Part shown: in pieces, positions 551 through 40,994 of the stretch
Layout: each line of letters opens with the position of its first letter
Position numbering within the stretch: position 1 is the stretch's first letter
Origin: Arthrobacter sp. zg-Y844
Lineage (GTDB): Bacteria > Actinomycetota > Actinomycetes > Actinomycetales > Micrococcaceae
Assembly (NCBI RefSeq): GCF_024385465.1
Contig: NZ_JANFLS010000002.1
Location: 868,001 to 932,000 of the forward strand
Length of the DNA: 64,000 bases
Direction of reading: 5' to 3'
Notes under the pieces: model-generated
Told to the model about the DNA's origin: nothing
What the model saw: the letters and a program-made list of their open reading frames with translations, nothing else
Databases searched by the model: none
Made by a program: the position numbers and the translations under genes

Positions 551-1750
551 CTACTTCAGGAAGTCCGGTACGTCCAGGTCATCCGGACGGCCGGTGGAGA
601 GATCGGACTCCACGACTGCCGGAAGATCGATGTCGAAGCCGGCGTCGGCCGGGACATCGCTGTGCTGGTGCGACCGCTGGGACCAGGCCGACAGGCCTGC
701 GGAAGCCGGAGCGGCAGCCCCGAAGCCGCCTGCAGCCGCTGCCGAGGCAGGCGGCGTGGCCGGCTCGGCCGGCTTGTTGTGCTGCGCCGGCTGCGAGGTG
801 ACATCCACCTGGTCGAAGCCTGCCGCGATAACGGTAACCCGCGCTTCGTCGCCCAGGGCGTCGTCAATGACGGCACCGAAGATGATGTTGGCTTCGGGGT
901 GGGCAACTTCCTGGACCAGGCGCGCTGCCTCGTTGATCTCGAACAGGCCGAGATCGGAACCGCCCTGAATGGAGAGCAGCACGCCGTGGGCGCCGTCGAT
1001 CGAAGCTTCGAGCAGAGGAGAAGCTATTGCCAGCTCGGCAGCCTTGACTGCACGGTCCTCGCCGCGGGCCGAACCGATGCCCATGAGGGCCGAACCTGCA
1101 CCCTGCATCACCGATTTCACGTCCGCGAAGTCGAGGTTGATCAGGCCCGGGGTGGTGATCAGGTCGGTAATGCCCTGAACGCCGGAGAGCAGGACCTGGT
1201 CCGCGGAACGGAAGGCATCCAGCATGGAGACGTTGCGGTCGCTGATGGACAGCAGCCGGTCATTCGGGATGACGATCAGCGTGTCGACTTCGTCGCGCAG
1301 CGTATCGATACCGGATTCGGCCTGGTTGGAGCGGCGCCGGCCTTCGAAGGTGAAGGGACGGGTAACCACGCCGATGGTCAGGGCGCCGAGCGAACGGGCG
1401 ATCCGGGCGACGACGGGAGCGCCGCCGGTACCGGTTCCGCCACCTTCGCCTGCGGTCACGAAGACCATGTCCGCTCCGCGGAGGACTTCCTCGATCTCCT
1501 CGGCGTGGTCCTCGGCGGCCTTGCGGCCGACCTCGGGATCAGCGCCGGCGCCCAGGCCACGCGTGAGTTCGCGGCCGACGTCGAGCTTGACGTCTGCGTC
1601 GCTCATCAGCAGTGCCTGTGCATCGGTGTTGATGGCGATGAACTCCACGCCGCGGAGGCCAACATCGATCATCCGGTTTACGGCGTTCACGCCACCGCCG
1701 CCGATGCCGACGACCTTGATGACGGCCAAGTAATTCTGCGGTGCTGCCAC
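551..1750 (-). CDS. ftsZ: Cell division protein FtsZ
   Basis: Tubulin-like GTPase that polymerises into the cytokinetic ring. The protein of 399 residues has the N-terminal [14 protein letters not shown] loop, the tubulin signature GGGTGTG at residues 103-109 and a long Ala/Ser/Pro linker ending in the conserved C-terminal peptide [10 protein letters not shown], which binds SepF/FtsW-type partners. I chose the GTG at 1750 ([13 protein letters not shown]) because family members start there and AGGGACACAGGA precedes it; an in-frame ATG at 1780 would add ten residues not seen in the family. It is separated from ftsQ by a 399-bp leader holding two palindromes, so it probably has its own promoter. 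Confidence 0.97.
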
Positions 1751-1945
1751 GTCCTGTGTCCCTTGTTCGAATCTCTGCAACTTTTATGTTTTTCGCAGCT
1801 GCGTTCGTTCTGCAGCTGCATGTGTCCTACTGAACCGGCCTGCGTACAAACCGGTTCCCGGCCGCCGACGCCCCCGTGGTTTCCAGCGGAATCCCGGAGA
1901 TCTCCACTGGACGCCCGGCCGAAAACCTTGAACCTACACAACCCT

Positions 1946-1964
1946 AACCCTCAACTTGAGGGTT
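1946..1964 (-). promoter_or_regulatory. 19-bp perfect palindrome in ftsZ leader, candidate FtsR operator
   Basis: AACCCTCAA-C-TTGAGGGTT, two perfect 9-base arms around one central base. On the minus strand a TAGGGT hexamer (fits the actinobacterial TANNNT -10) overlaps its last base. A 19-bp gap upstream of that hexamer has only a poor -35 (TAACTA). A palindrome filling a long spacer is typical of promoters activated by MerR-family proteins, and an FtsR-like MerR gene lies at 39737-40486. The link to FtsR is inference. Confidence 0.5.
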
Positions 1965-1973
1965 ATAGTTATG

Positions 1974-1993
1974 TCAAGTAATCCATTACTTGA
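1974..1993. promoter_or_regulatory. 20-bp perfect inverted repeat beside the ftsZ palindrome
   Basis: TCAAGTAAT-CC-ATTACTTGA, 9-base arms around two bases, only nine bases from the palindrome at 1946-1964. The minus-strand TTGACA (1977-1972) overlaps its edge. It is unlike a terminator: the arms are A/T-rich and no T-run follows. A protein-binding site is the simplest reading; the protein is unknown. Confidence 0.45.
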
Positions 1994-2149
1994 GACGCTA
2001 TGGGGCCAGCGCCGCTTCCGCAAATACCGCCCCCGCGTGTCGGAGGATTCTTTCATCACGGCCGCGGAACGCTACCTGCTCCGTTCCCCTGCGGATCCCC
2101 TCCGAGGGCTCCGGTCCGGCGCCTGGTTTCCAGCCGTCCTCCGCGCCGG

Positions 2150-3145
2150 TCAACGTGTCACCGGACGGTCGGGGGTACTGACGTCGTAAACCTGCACCGG
2201 CGGATCGGACGGCTCCATCTTCAGGAGCGCCTCAAGCACCCGTGCCTTTGCCTCGTTGGCATCGGCACTCCCCCAGAATACTGTCTGCCCGCTCTTAAGC
2301 TTCAGTTCGACCGAATCCAGCGTCTGGGCGGAGGCGTTCTCCAGCCGGCCAAGCACCTCCGGCGGAAGCGTCGCCAGTACTGCCGTGATGCTGGGGAAAA
2401 CACTCGCATGGATGGCTTCGCTTCCGCCGGCGATAAGCGGAAGGGCGACCGCTGCCCGGTCAGCTGCTATTGCCAGCCGGCGGCCCTCTTCGTCGATGAG
2501 GACATGCGTGTCACCGTCCTGCAGGACGGCTACGGGAATGCGTTCGGTGACAGTAACCACCAGGGTGGACGGTGGCTGTGCTGCGACCTCGATCTTTTCG
2601 ATTTCGGGGCGGTCTTTCAGCAGCCCTTCCACGTCGGCGACGGAAATGGTGGGCAGGGTCTGCCCCTTCAACGGTTCCAGCGCCGCTTCGGCCTGTTCAC
2701 GGGGCAGCAGCGTGGTGCCCTCTACCACTACGGTCTGCAGGGCGAGCATCGGTGAGAAGAACAGCAGGGCAAAGAACAGTGCGGTGACGGACACCGCTGA
2801 GCCGACCGTGATCCATGCTGCCCGGCGCCGCCGCTTGCCGGGCGGTTCCGGAAATGCCAGGACCGTTCCGTCGGTGCCTGCGCTGTTGGCGCCAGGCACC
2901 GGGGACTTTGCGGCGGAGCGCCGGCTTCCCGCAAAGCGGCGCGGGGCCTTGTCCGCCGGAGCGCCCGCAGGCTTCCCGGCGGATTTCCCCTTCCCCGCCG
3001 GCTTGGGCTTGGCGGCACCGGCAGCAGGCCGGACAGCGGTGGAACCGGCGGCGGGTCTGTCTGCTGCCACCTGGTCTTCCGGATCGAGGGCACGTGTGGC
3101 CGTAATGGTCTCGTCGTCGCTCCCGGAGCGCTTCCTAGCGGCCAT
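2150..3145 (-). CDS. ftsQ: Cell division protein FtsQ (DivIB)
   Basis: Single-pass membrane protein of the divisome that joins FtsL and FtsB-like proteins. The 331-residue protein has a charged Lys/Arg/Ala/Pro-rich cytoplasmic N terminus of about 100 residues, one membrane helix (AWITVGSAVSVTALFFALLF) and a periplasm-facing POTRA domain followed by the FtsQ region. The ATG at 3145 ([10 protein letters not shown]) lies inside the end of murC and gives an 11-bp overlap; the longer in-frame reading would run deep into murC and encode unrelated sequence. It is followed by the ftsZ leader. Confidence 0.92.
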   Translation of the reverse strand: MAARKRSGSDDETITATRALDPEDQVAADRPAAGSTAVRPAAGAAKPKPAGKGKSAGKPAGAPADKAPRRFAGSRRSAAKSPVPGANSAGTDGTVLAFPEPPGKRRRRAAWITVGSAVSVTALFFALLFFSPMLALQTVVVEGTTLLPREQAEAALEPLKGQTLPTISVADVEGLLKDRPEIEKIEVAAQPPSTLVVTVTERIPVAVLQDGDTHVLIDEEGRRLAIAADRAAVALPLIAGGSEAIHASVFPSITAVLATLPPEVLGRLENASAQTLDSVELKLKSGQTVFWGSADANEAKARVLEALLKMEPSDPPVQVYDVSTPDRPVTR

Positions 3146-4568
3146 TGGCGGCTTTCCCCGCTGCGGCGGCCGAACGGGCCGGAACGGCGGCCAGGCGGGC
3201 AACCAGTTCGGATCCGAGCGCGGTGACGTCACCGGCACCGACGGTCAGGATGATGTCTCCCTCGTCGGCGCTGTCTGCGACCTGGGCCACCGCGCGTTCC
3301 GGACTATCGGCATAGCCGCCGGGCACGTGCAGTCGGGAGGTGATCAGCTCACTGGTGACGCCTTCAATCGGATCTTCCCGTGCCGGATAGATGTCCAGGA
3401 CGGTGGCGGTATCGGCCAGGTCCAGGGCTGCTGCAAACTCGGCCGCAAAGTTGCGGGTGCGGCTGAACAGGTGCGGCTGGAACAACACATGCACCCGATG
3501 CCCTCCGGCCACTGTGCGGGCCGCCTTCAGGGCGGCGTCGACTTCGGTGGGATGGTGGGCATAATCGTCGAACACCTGCACGCCGCGTGCACTGCCGCGG
3601 GATTCGAACCGCCGGGCGGCGCCGGAGAACGTAGCGAGCCCCGCTGCGGCCGTCCGGGGATCAACGCCCAGTTCCAGCCCGACGGCAAAGGCGGCAGCCG
3701 CGTTCAGGATGTTGTGCGCGCCCGGAACCTGCAGGACAAGCTGCACCTCGCCGTCGCGGCCGTCCACGGTGTACTGCAGGGTGCTGGCCGAGCCGGCGCC
3801 GGCGGGACGGGTGTCCGTAACCCGCACGTCCGCACCGGCGGCGTAGCCGTAGGTGGCTACCCGGACGCCCGGGCAGCGTTCAACGAGGGCTACGGCACCG
3901 GCGTCGTCCGCGCAGGCGACAAGGAGCCCCTCCGCCGGCAGCAGCGCCGTGAAGGCGTCGAAGGAGGCGAAGACCGCTTCCTCCGTGCCGTAATGGTCCA
4001 GGTGGTCGGCCTCGACATTGGTGACCACGCTGATCCGCGGGTTGTAGTTGAGGAAGGAACCGTCCGACTCATCGGCTTCGGCCACGAAGACCCGTCCCGC
4101 CCCGTGGGCGGCATTGACGCCAAGGGCCGCAACGTCGCCGCCGATGGCGAAGGAAGGATCCAGTCCGGCCTCCCGCAGCATCACGGTCACCATGGCCGTG
4201 GTGGTGGTTTTGCCGTGGGTGCCGGCCACCGCGATGAGGTCCTGCTCGCCCATGGCCGCGGAGAGCGCCACTGAGCGGTGGATGATCCGCAGCCCGCGGG
4301 AACGCGCCGCCGCAAGTTCCGGATTCTGCTCGCGGATGGCCGTTGACACGACTACCGTGTCGACGCCGGCAACGTGTCCGGCGTCGTGCCCCACAAACAC
4401 CTCGGCCCCGAGCGCTTCAAGGGCCCGCAGTCCCGGCGAGTCCTTGGCATCGGAGCCGGAGACTTCAATGCCCTGGGCCAGGAGTACCCGGGCAACGGCC
4501 GACATGCCGGCACCGCCGAGGCCGATGAAGTGTACTTTCCCCAGGTCTGTCGGGTTCAGCCGGTTCAT
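3135..4568 (-). CDS. murC: UDP-N-acetylmuramate--L-alanine ligase MurC
   Basis: Adds L-alanine to UDP-MurNAc, the first amino acid of the peptidoglycan stem peptide (cytoplasm, ATP-dependent). The 477-residue protein has the N-terminal [14 protein letters not shown] nucleotide-sugar fold, the ATP loop [10 protein letters not shown] at 115-124, and the Mur middle and C-terminal domains with [10 protein letters not shown]. The start ATG overlaps the murG stop by four bases (ATGA), and the end overlaps ftsQ, so translation is probably coupled along the operon. Confidence 0.97.
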
Positions 4569-19300: not shown

Positions 19301-19780
19301 ATGAAAAAGACGCTCACGCTGCTCTCTGCCGCGGCCCTGATCCTGGCGGCAGCCGGATGCTCCACCGGCACCGCGGAGGACGGGGATTCCCCGTCCGCTA
19401 CGCAGTCCGCATCCCCCACCCCGACGCCTACGGAGTCTCCCGTTGCCCTCGCGGACGGATTCCCGTCCGACCTCATCCCGGTGATGGAGGGCGCAGAGCT
19501 TCTTTCGAGCAGCGTGGACCGGGCGAACGGCACGCTCACCGCCGTATTAGTGGAGTCCTCGGATGCTCCCGCAGCCGAGATCCTCGCCTTTTACGATGCC
19601 AAGCTGGTTGCCCAGGGTTTCACTGCAGCCGAAGCGGCCACCGGTTCCCCGTCCTCGCGCGACTACGTGCGCACCGGCGCCAGTGAACCCGAGACGGTCA
19701 ACATCACGGCGATTACCAAGGAGGGCGGCCCGGCGACGGTGACTGTCGGCGCCACGGTCCTCGCAGAAACGGTGAAATAA
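19301..19780 (+). CDS. Secreted lipoprotein, unknown function
   Basis: A 159-residue protein with a lipoprotein signal peptide (MKKTLTLLSAAALILAAAGC; Cys20 would be lipidated), a Ser/Thr/Pro/Asp-rich linker and a compact domain of about 100 residues with no catalytic motif that I recognise. It is two bases upstream of the polyprenyl synthase gene, so the two are probably cotranscribed. Confidence 0.8.
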   Translation: MKKTLTLLSAAALILAAAGCSTGTAEDGDSPSATQSASPTPTPTESPVALADGFPSDLIPVMEGAELLSSSVDRANGTLTAVLVESSDAPAAEILAFYDAKLVAQGFTAAEAATGSPSSRDYVRTGASEPETVNITAITKEGGPATVTVGATVLAETVK

Positions 19781-38340: not shown

Positions 38341-38380
38341 AACGTTGAAGGGCATCCCCGCGGGGATGCCCTTCAACGTT
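38341..38380. terminator. 40-bp perfect palindrome, bidirectional terminator
   Basis: AACGTTGAAGGGCATCCCCG followed directly by its exact complement. It lies between the convergent ParA-type and MerR genes and would form a very stable hairpin in both transcripts. Confidence 0.85.
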
Positions 38381-38404: not shown

Positions 38405-38468
38405 GCCCTAACTGGGCTGTGCGCCCTAACTGAGCTATGCGCCCTAACTGAGCTGTGCGCCCTAACTG
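38405..38468. repeat. 18-bp tandem repeat running into the MerR stop codon
   Basis: GCCCTAACTG recurs at 38405, 38423, 38441 and 38459, a period of exactly 18 bases, with unit GCCCTAACTGAGCTGTGC and only one or two changes. The last copy contains the stop codon of the minus-strand MerR gene (38464-38462), so each copy carries a duplicate of that gene's end with an in-frame stop. Confidence 0.85.
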
Positions 38469-39049
38469 ATTTTGCGGGCGATGCGGCGCTGGCTCAGTTC
38501 GTCTCCGGGAAAGTCCTGCTCATTGACGTGCTCACTGGGCAACTGTGCGAGGCTGCCCTCGACTTCGCGCCAGACCCGGCCCACGGCTATGCCGAAGACG
38601 CCCTGGCCGCCCTGGACCAGGTCGATGACCTCGTCGGCGGAAGTGCACTCGTACACGCTGGCGCCGTCGCTCATCAAGGTGATCTGTGCCAGGTCCTCGA
38701 CTCCACGTTCCCGCAGGTGCTCCACGGCAGTTCGGATCTGCTGGAGTGATACACCGGTGTCCAGCAGCCGCTTGACGACTTTCAGGACCAGGATGTCGCG
38801 GAAACCGTAGAGGCGCTGCGTGCCGGAACCGGATGCACCTCGTACCGCAGGTTCCACGAGGCCGGTGCGCGCCCAGTAATCCAACTGGCGGTAAGTTATC
38901 CCTGCAGCCTTGCAGGCGGTGGGGCCACGGTAGCCTGCGTCTTCATCGAGAAGAGGCAGGTCCTCGGTGAACAGCAAGCCCTGGGCGCTCTGGGAAGGGA
39001 TGCTCCCCGGTGCTGCGGCGTGTTCGCCGGCATCGCCTTTCGGACTCAC
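38462..39049 (-). CDS. MerR-family regulator, Rv1830-like
   Basis: A 195-residue DNA-binding protein with a disordered first 40 residues, a MerR winged helix (YRGPTACKAAGITYRQLDYW to about 105, with RLYGFRDILVLKVVKRLLD) and a helical effector region. Order GarA - MerR - DUF151 - MerR is the same as Rv1827-Rv1830 in M. tuberculosis, where Rv1830 influences growth and drug recovery; this gene corresponds to Rv1830. The GTG at 39049 has AGGAGG five bases upstream. Confidence 0.85.
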   Translation of the reverse strand: MSPKGDAGEHAAAPGSIPSQSAQGLLFTEDLPLLDEDAGYRGPTACKAAGITYRQLDYWARTGLVEPAVRGASGSGTQRLYGFRDILVLKVVKRLLDTGVSLQQIRTAVEHLRERGVEDLAQITLMSDGASVYECTSADEVIDLVQGGQGVFGIAVGRVWREVEGSLAQLPSEHVNEQDFPGDELSQRRIARKIS

Positions 39050-39736: not shown

Positions 39737-40486
39737 TCAGCCCTCCATCCGCGCTATTTGCCCATGCACCAAAGCGCTGTGCAGGCTCAGGCACAGGTCG
39801 CTGATCTCGCGGGCGGTCTCAGCGGCGCGCGCCTTCGAGGCGACGTCCCGGCGGGAGGCGACCGGGGCAACCACGCGTTCAACCAGTCCGAGCTCGCGGT
39901 CCGCTGCCGCCCGGAAGGGACGCAGGTGCCGCGGTTCGATGCCGTGCGCCTCGAGCTGGACACAGGCCTTGGCCACCTTTAGGGCATGCTCGTCATAGTT
40001 TTCATCGCCGCTGGTGATCAGTCCGTAGCTGACCAGGCTGTGCACCAATTCCGTGCTCGCGCCGGATTCCTTAACCAGCTCCTGGAAGGTCAAGGTGCGG
40101 GCATGGGCGCGGGCAGCAAGCTCTCCGGCCAGCTGGTCCGAAACGACGCGCGGGGCAAGGGACATACCGCCGGGAAGCGACTCGGGCCGCTCTCCCCGGT
40201 CAATCGCGTCCAGATAATCCTTGATGACCTTCAGCGGCAGGTACTGGTCGCGCTGCAATGCCAGCACAAACCGAAGACGCTCGACGTCGGCCGTACTGTA
40301 CTTGCGGTAACCGGCGGCCGTGCGCTGCGGCGTCACCAGGCCTTTTTCCTCAAGGAAACGGATCTTGGATGCGCTGATGGCAGGGAAGTCCGTGCTGAGC
40401 TCGCCCAGGACCTCGCCGATATTCAGCACCCTGCCACGCAGCCGTTCCGGTCCGGTGGTGCGCCTGACGGACTGTGATGCTGACAT
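39737..40486 (-). CDS. MerR-family regulator, FtsR-like
   Basis: A 249-residue protein with a MerR helix-turn-helix near the N terminus (LNIGEVLGELSTDFPAISAS, then IRFLEEKGLVTPQRTAAGYRKYSTADVERL) and a C-terminal region rich in conserved helices. It corresponds to Rv1828 and to Corynebacterium glutamicum FtsR, which activates ftsZ. ATG 40486 (MSASQSVRR) has AAGG eight bases upstream; the longer frame lacks family sequence. A candidate operator is the palindrome at 1946-1964. Confidence 0.85.
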   Translation of the reverse strand: MSASQSVRRTTGPERLRGRVLNIGEVLGELSTDFPAISASKIRFLEEKGLVTPQRTAAGYRKYSTADVERLRFVLALQRDQYLPLKVIKDYLDAIDRGERPESLPGGMSLAPRVVSDQLAGELAARAHARTLTFQELVKESGASTELVHSLVSYGLITSGDENYDEHALKVAKACVQLEAHGIEPRHLRPFRAAADRELGLVERVVAPVASRRDVASKARAAETAREISDLCLSLHSALVHGQIARMEG

Positions 40487-40523
40487 GTCTACTACCTTAT
40501 CTGCCCTACGCCGGGGCCTGAGC

Positions 40524-40994
40524 CTAGTTTCCGGCAGTTGCGGGGCGGGCAGCGTAAAAAGTGAGTCGGAACTTACCGATCTGCACTTCGCTCCCGGTAC
40601 GCAGCAGCACACTGTCGACCCGGTCATGGTTGACGTACGTGCCGTTCAGGCTCATGGAATCCACCACGCGGAACCCCTCGGGGGTACGGCGGAACTCAAC
40701 ATGCTTGCGCGAAACAGTGACGTCATCGAGGAAAACGTCTGCGTTGGGGTGCCGGCCGGCAGTAGTGACGTCCTGGTCCAGCAGGAAGCGTGCACCGGCG
40801 TTCGGACCGCTGTGGGCAATCAGCAGGGCTGAGCGCGCAGGGAGGGCCGCGACGGCGGCTCGCTCGTCCGGGGTCAGCTTGGGCTCAACCGATGTGGAAT
40901 CGGACATCGGGGGAAGACTGATGGATGTGGTGTCTTCCGTGCCGGGCGCCTGTCGGTTGCCCGCTCGTTCGGCGCTGTACTGCTCGCCCGCCAT
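40524..40994 (-). CDS. garA: FHA-domain regulator GarA (OdhI)
   Basis: Phospho-switch protein that binds and inhibits 2-oxoglutarate dehydrogenase and steers glutamate metabolism in actinobacteria. The 156-residue protein has an N-terminal tail with the motif EDTTSIS, equivalent to the ETTSVF site phosphorylated by PknB/PknG, and an FHA domain (about 65-150: AGRHPNADVFLDDVTVSRKH, SLNGTYVN). ATG 40994 has GGAGGAAA six bases upstream. Confidence 0.92.
   Translation of the reverse strand: MAGEQYSAERAGNRQAPGTEDTTSISLPPMSDSTSVEPKLTPDERAAVAALPARSALLIAHSGPNAGARFLLDQDVTTAGRHPNADVFLDDVTVSRKHVEFRRTPEGFRVVDSMSLNGTYVNHDRVDSVLLRTGSEVQIGKFRLTFYAARPATAGN

Follow-up and report, generated by a model that had tools for sequence, protein, structure and literature searches.

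The window, by which we mean the whole stretch of 64,000 nucleotides analyzed, contains ftsZ on the minus strand at 551..1750 (TIGR00065, 419.5 bits). Its start codon is the GTG at 1750, a start position shared by relatives. The ftsQ gene lies on the same strand at 2150..3238, where the top match was PRK05529 (155.5 bits, under the cut-off of 353). Between the ftsZ GTG (1750) and the ftsQ stop (2150) lies the ftsZ leader (1751-2149), which is 399 bp long. FtsZ was 97% identical to that of Arthrobacter gandavensis, and the genome is close to that species. The leader contains two perfect palindromes, neither assigned to a strand. Palindrome 1 (1946..1964, 19 bp) reads AACCCTCAA-C-TTGAGGGTT, with 9-base arms and a 1-base center. 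Palindrome 2 (1974..1993, 20 bp) reads TCAAGTAAT-CC-ATTACTTGA, with 9-base arms and a 2-base center, and its right arm overlaps the motif TTGACAT. The spacing between the two is nine bases, so the coordinates bear out the sequence-only reading, which had described two palindromes with arms of 9 at this distance in a 399-bp leader.

Over the 64 kb, we counted all perfect palindromes having 9-base arms and a loop of 0-2 bases. Five were listed at four places, whereas 20 first-order Markov versions averaged 1.75; for the 399-bp leader, 0.005 would be expected, and two or more occurred in 0.04% of 5000 simulations. Both leader palindromes are real and beyond chance, but they differ in meaning. The 19-bp palindrome 1 had no second match in the genome when up to 3 mismatches were allowed. 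Beyond what the sequence-only reading had noticed, palindrome 1 sits at the center of a longer, imperfect palindrome spanning 1940-1970, of which the hexamer TAGGGT (1941-1946) also forms part. Elsewhere in the window, a further perfect palindrome was observed at 38351-38370, just past a second MerR gene (38462-39049), and one more at 19378-19396.

The window also encodes FtsR. The longest open reading frame of ftsR (39737..40627, minus strand) scored 283.6 bits against NF050798 (cut-off 150), confirming the FtsR-like MerR gene that had been noticed at 39737. This frame overlaps the next gene, indicating that the true start is probably further in. The best solved match to the protein was the C-terminal domain of Rv1828 (5ydc/5ydd). 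An OdhI/GarA-like FHA gene lies on one side of ftsR, and genes for a bifunctional nuclease and the second MerR protein lie on the other; the OdhI model gave 164.4 bits, under its cut-off of 200, and the FHA, bifunctional nuclease, and MerR_1 domains were over theirs. The gene is accordingly an orthologue placed in the odhI/garA - ftsR - nuclease - MerR cluster that has been described for ftsR (PMC6683498). FtsR was over the family cut-off in 120/120 sampled family genomes, covering 31/31 genera.

Half-sites of the FtsR type in the ftsZ leader

It has been established that FtsR binds and activates ftsZ in C. glutamicum, and the published FtsR site is a 25-bp inverted repeat with 9-7-9 spacing, located upstream of the start in that species (PMC6683498). 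A half-site matrix, trained on only two published 25-mers and 8 distinct Streptomyces-type 25-mers, was applied to the window leader. Two overlapping 9-7-9 hits were obtained. Register B (1940..1964, minus strand) reads AACCCTCAA-GTTGAGG-GTTAGGGTT and scored 26.9 of 29.4. Register A (1946..1970, minus strand) reads AACTATAAC-CCTCAAG-TTGAGGGTT, scored 19.9, and corresponds to the register of the published M. tuberculosis site. The next best score was -0.8, and the shuffled-leader maximum was 10.8. Thus, 25-bp inverted repeats with halves of the AACCCTAAA/TTGAGGGTA type and 9-7-9 spacing are present upstream of ftsZ. The two hits make up a compound FtsR-type operator of 31 bp (1940..1970, minus strand), reading AACTATAACCCTCAA-G-TTGAGGGTTAGGGTT in the ftsZ sense, and their 19-bp overlap is palindrome 1. 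Its perfect symmetry arises because the right half of one site faces the left half of the other.

From this arrangement, four AACCYTMAA-type half-sites would combine into two 9-7-9 dimer sites centered at 1958 and 1952, six bp or about half a helical turn apart. In the window's genome, register B was the sole zero-mismatch match to the operator pattern; at 2 mismatches, the pattern matched two other genomic places, compared with 1 for the reversed control. The symmetrical DNA before ftsZ is, as predicted from these motifs, very probably the docking site of FtsR, in the form of two overlapping sites six bases apart. The earlier proposal that palindrome 1 is the FtsR site therefore holds insofar as it lies in an FtsR-type operator, but the conserved unit is the 9-7-9 site in one or two registers and not the 19-bp palindrome.

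Conservation among relatives

Leaders were compared in four sets: 30 genus rows (29 genomes plus the window, which duplicates its own genome), 113 other leaders of the family, 78 of 80 named loci, and 60 of 108 class genomes. Two named loci (L064 and L067) were left out owing to too little upstream DNA, the named set includes the Streptomyces used for matrix training, and one genome (G126) gave no ftsZ match. All leader counts include related sequences and do not represent independent events. Counts of symmetry, of the family palindrome, and of the -10 and GACAC elements refer to TTGACAT-type-anchored leaders only, and their percentages apply to those leaders. One leader, L010, titled Sporosarcina beigongshangi, carried a Micrococcaceae-type ftsZ (83% identical) and leader; this genome is probably mislabelled or contaminated.

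For the doublet count, both halves of each site were required, since a cut-off on the total score would admit one perfect and one poor half. Pairs six bp apart were found in 24/30 genus leaders, and numbered 47 across the 113 other family leaders and 43 across the 78 named leaders. A Markov control of 4420 leaders yielded 30 with one site and 0 with two. At other spacings, the family set gave 6 pairs and the named set gave 2. In the three leader sets, a six-bp partner accompanied 15/20, 38/68, and 31/50 distinct sites, compared with 0.1-0.4% in simulations that kept the half-sites and randomized the spacer and flanks, and we therefore rejected the idea that registers A and B are chance by-products of each other. 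A stricter cut-off left 13, 21, and 5 distinct sites with such a partner (0.03-0.07% simulated). The class sample showed a site in 46/60 leaders and two sites in 21/60, all pairs being six apart, and no site in 14. Among the 113 other family leaders, no site was found in 26 at a score of at least 8, or in 36 when both halves were required, even though every sampled family genome carries FtsR. Such leaders, like the pairs at other spacings, count against the compound-operator reading.

We then considered the palindrome itself. In a genus clade (G002, G003, G007, G008, G019, G022, G023, and G024), palindrome 1 was down to 5-7/9 pairs and register B stayed within one mismatch. We rejected palindrome 1 as a dimer site of its own on two grounds: it erodes in genomes that retain register B, and FtsR sites as published have 9-7-9 spacing. 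In 69 anchored leaders from the rest of the family, palindrome 1 kept at least 7/9 pairs in 59 and was perfect in 12. The pattern around its center in 74 distinct leaders was AACnnTAACCYTCAA-N-TTGARGGTTAnnGTT, showing symmetry around the operator center except at pairs 11 and 12. The right outer GTT (+13 to +15) was kept in 54-69 of the 74; the left AAC was fixed by the choice of leaders, but the right GTT was not. In the genus alignment, read in the ftsZ sense, the invariant or nearly invariant blocks were CCGACACGCG, GGTNNTTGC, ATAGCGT, TACTTGACATAACTnTAAC, and TCAA, and the right part of the operator was more variable. The left half of register A, AACTNTAA, has a moderate score and was nearly invariant in the genus clade that has lost its partner half, so it may be kept for another reason. 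The stretch 1963-1977, TTGACATAACTATAA in the ftsZ sense, was likewise nearly invariant in the genus even with the other half of register A lost, with one base differing in L093. Any function of TTGACATAACTATAA, like the functions of both registers, is one that we infer. Single half-site-like words (GGTTCAAGG and TTGAAGGTT) were also observed 3′ of the operator in the genus leaders L082-L110.

FtsR proteins were compared from 60 family genomes. Genus g13 is without the usual site, and a 9-7-9 repeat with halves (A/C)AGGTTCAA was present in 5/5 of its leaders (AAGGTTCAA-type versus AACCCTCAA-type), 235 bp before ftsZ in L161, L185, L186, and L191 and 255 bp before it in L162; this repeat was chosen by eye together with an 8-of-9 filter. 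The FtsR of g13 carries SKLRFLEERDL in 5/5, and most others carry SKIRFLEEKGL or a near form. Thus, RD replaces KG after the recognition helix, and the other 55 FtsR proteins all lack that D. The joint change of half-site and FtsR is only suggestive and, as read from these alignments, would amount to one evolutionary event.

A rival explanation is that register B alone is used; the adjacent -35-like element would then have produced the left outer half, and with it the perfect palindrome, as side effects. Consistent with this, register B had exactly one match within one mismatch in 28/29 genus genomes, each just upstream of ftsZ, the control pattern matching in one genome of the same scan, and register B is single in the genome. 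Among distinct genus leaders at a summed half-site score of at least 12, register B was present in 19/19 and register A in 12/19, never alone. However, both registers are common in the rest of the family, where 37/113 leaders (and 51/78 named leaders) could not be anchored and were left out of this count: register A reached a score of at least 12 in 53 of 67 distinct anchored leaders, and 14 leaders had A but not B, and 11 had B but not A. Doublets far above simulation and the retained right outer GTT also speak against the use of register B alone, which we regard as rather doubtful. Palindrome 2 as a second, separate operator is far less credible, and we rejected it. It is perfect with arms of 9, of which so few are expected in the leader, but the alignment of leaders that had been proposed as a check on both palindromes separated the two: the FtsR-type site of palindrome 1 was kept, and palindrome 2 was found only in the closest species. 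Palindrome 2 was perfect in 8 of the 30 genus rows, had 8/9 pairs in two more, and fell under 8/9 in 20; 69 other family leaders averaged 3.0/9 pairs, near chance, with 3 reaching at least 7. A McdR site was also rejected, as palindrome 2 did not match the motif AATnACAnnnnTGTnATT by eye. The right arm of palindrome 2 owes its conservation to the overlap with TTGACAT, and palindrome 2 is probably without a function of its own.

Candidate promoters around the operator

Upstream of the operator, a WhiA/WhiB-type box, CCGACACGC, which the sequence-only reading had not mentioned, was found at 2035..2043 on the minus strand and contains cGACACGc. In mycobacteria, cGACACGc is described as the WhiB2 motif and precedes a -10 (PMC9040748). 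The motif of WhiA is GACAC, and in Streptomyces WhiA/WhiB target ftsZ directly (PMC3781837, PMC4850268). As in the mycobacterial case, the window box lies upstream of a predicted -10, TAGCGT (1995..2000, minus strand), with a predicted start near 1988. TTGCGG (2018..2023, minus strand), at a 17-bp spacer, may serve as the -35, and its TTGC was kept in the genus alignment. The window genome contains one whiA and two whiB-like genes. Further downstream, the -35-like TTGACAT (1971..1977, minus strand) stands directly before the left half-site and was invariant in the genus alignment; in the class sample, [T/C]TGACAT[A/C]A was present in 42 distinct leaders among 60.

These elements were well conserved relative to TTGACAT. 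TANNNT preceded TTGACA by 12-27 bp in 159/160 distinct TTGACAT leaders of the four pooled sets (25/25 genus, 66/67 other family, 26/26 named, and 42/42 class), compared with 6.6% in a shuffle null. GACAC lay 40-90 bp before TTGACAT in 25/25 genus, 66/67 other family, 21/26 named, and 20/42 class leaders (null 6.0%). The TTGACA anchor was held by 107/143 genus and family leaders, the other 36 being left out of the box count; GACACG was found in 103 of the 107, at 61-65 bp before TTGACA in the 17 rows listed, and TANNGT[T/C] in 105. The conserved box and TANNNT, together with the whiA and whiB-like genes, point to a better conserved candidate promoter upstream of TAGGGT, a predicted WhiA/WhiB-type promoter P1 composed of 2035-2043, 2018-2023, and 1995-2000 with a start near 1988. 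The operator centers would lie approximately 30 and 36 bp downstream of this start.

The sequence-only reading had instead placed palindrome 1 in the long spacer of a TAGGGT -10 with a poor -35, the geometry of MerR-activated promoters. In such a classical promoter, FtsR would bind in the 19-bp spacer between the poor -35 and TAGGGT and untwist the DNA, a mechanism partly compatible with a compound operator. The hexamer is indeed present, and the hexamer at this position was TANNNT in 24/25 genus and 58/67 other family distinct leaders; the M. tuberculosis motif lies between the -10 and -35 of that species' start P1, according to PMC6683498. However, TAGGGT (1941-1946) coincides with the half-site of register B, and outside the family the hexamer was often GAGGGT, with TANNNT in only 10/26 named and 6/42 class distinct leaders. 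Furthermore, a good -35 is lacking at 19 bp, the sole good one (TTGACA) being 25 bp away; no -10 was found at the normal distance from TTGACA in the window. As TAGGGT is a half-site, TANNNT is scarce outside the family, and a more widely conserved -10 lies upstream, in P1, the classical promoter with a 19-bp spacer is unproven and, in our view, unlikely. TAGGGT is a possible second -10 in this family. Alternatively, palindrome 1 might act at the RNA level, folding into a hairpin within the leader of a transcript from P1, which would include it if P1 is used. A hairpin was predicted for 10 aligned genus leaders, and at one inner pair both bases vary together, as C-G or T-A (Fisher p 7e-4, uncorrected for relatedness). 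Nevertheless, the covariation term across the 10 sequences was only -0.11 kcal/mol with 1/19 pairs compensated, on which ground the hairpin was rejected; the inner pairs also break in the clade that keeps register B, and no T-run follows directly in the window. A hairpin function is thus very improbable.

Proposed operation and comparison with known systems

Taken together, the best explanation of the locus, which we consider probable, is a compound FtsR operator of two 9-7-9 sites, located just downstream of the predicted P1 and controlling ftsZ. Palindrome 1 would be the core of this operator, directly after TTGACAT, through which the MerR-type FtsR encoded at 39737 would control ftsZ. FtsR would bind at 1940-1970 and use both registers, and occupancy would tune ftsZ either through activation of a start just downstream (register A, with TAGGGT left free) or through hindrance of P1 with the hexamer covered (register B). 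A bolder version would be a two-register dose switch across much of the class, in which FtsR on register A beside TTGACAT promotes ftsZ and a further dimer, bound to register B, hides the start region or shuts off the WhiA/WhiB promoter. This version is speculative and we do not expect it to hold; if true, FtsZ output would peak at an intermediate FtsR level, and the switch would be absent from corynebacteria, whose one site precedes the GACAC box.

FtsR control of ftsZ is already known; new here are the doublet of sites and its placement downstream of a GACAC promoter. This two-register layout is not described in the accessible part of the FtsR literature searched (PMC6683498). Little is known about how Actinobacteria set their ftsZ dose, on which FtsR acts as a conserved direct regulator. 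If a double site downstream of a WhiA/WhiB promoter is true, the published 25-bp single-site model, including the mycobacterial register, would be incomplete, and other organisms need not show the activation reported for C. glutamicum. Such a double site might also account in part for the disturbed division of C. glutamicum both when FtsR is lost and when it is in excess. With the half-sites, registers, and spacing now defined, the double-site reading can be tested directly.

With regard to the promoter, ftsZ is a direct target of WhiA/WhiB in Streptomyces, from which the Micrococcaceae differ in that spore-forming division is not known in them. The predicted box of the window resembles the GACAC or cGACACGc box of WhiA/WhiB(2) promoters (PMC3781837, PMC4850268, PMC9040748). 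As for the regulator, the C. glutamicum FtsR operator at ftsZ shares the regulator family, half-sites, 9-7-9 spacing, and target gene with the window (PMC6683498). The Rv1828 site at M. tuberculosis ftsZ, with the left half AACTCTAA, is equivalent to register A of the window and is described between the -35 and -10; unlike in the window, a second register is not mentioned in the accessible part of that source (PMC6683498). The C. glutamicum 25-mer was matched within two mismatches in 4/301 genomes (L351-L354), all of one genus, from a family whose members appear to include mycobacteria and corynebacteria. All four showed a single-register FtsR site with GACACGC beginning 2 bp after it, and in two of them ftsZ was identified downstream, once by script and once by eye. 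This order agrees with the published C. glutamicum site upstream of the start (PMC6683498). The C. glutamicum-type site, known here from these four genomes, is thus single and upstream of the GACACGC box, in contrast to the 31-bp, two-register operator of the window downstream of the box promoter. The earlier suggestion of FtsR control at this locus is upheld as regards an FtsR-type operator at ftsZ, but activation as in Corynebacterium cannot simply be carried over, as the order of operator and GACAC box is reversed in the four matching genomes. Finally, at the QacR and DtxR/IdeR operators, two dimers occupy overlapping sites approximately half a turn apart. These proteins belong to other families and double occupancy in the window is only proposed, but the overlapping layout of their operators is similar to that found here.
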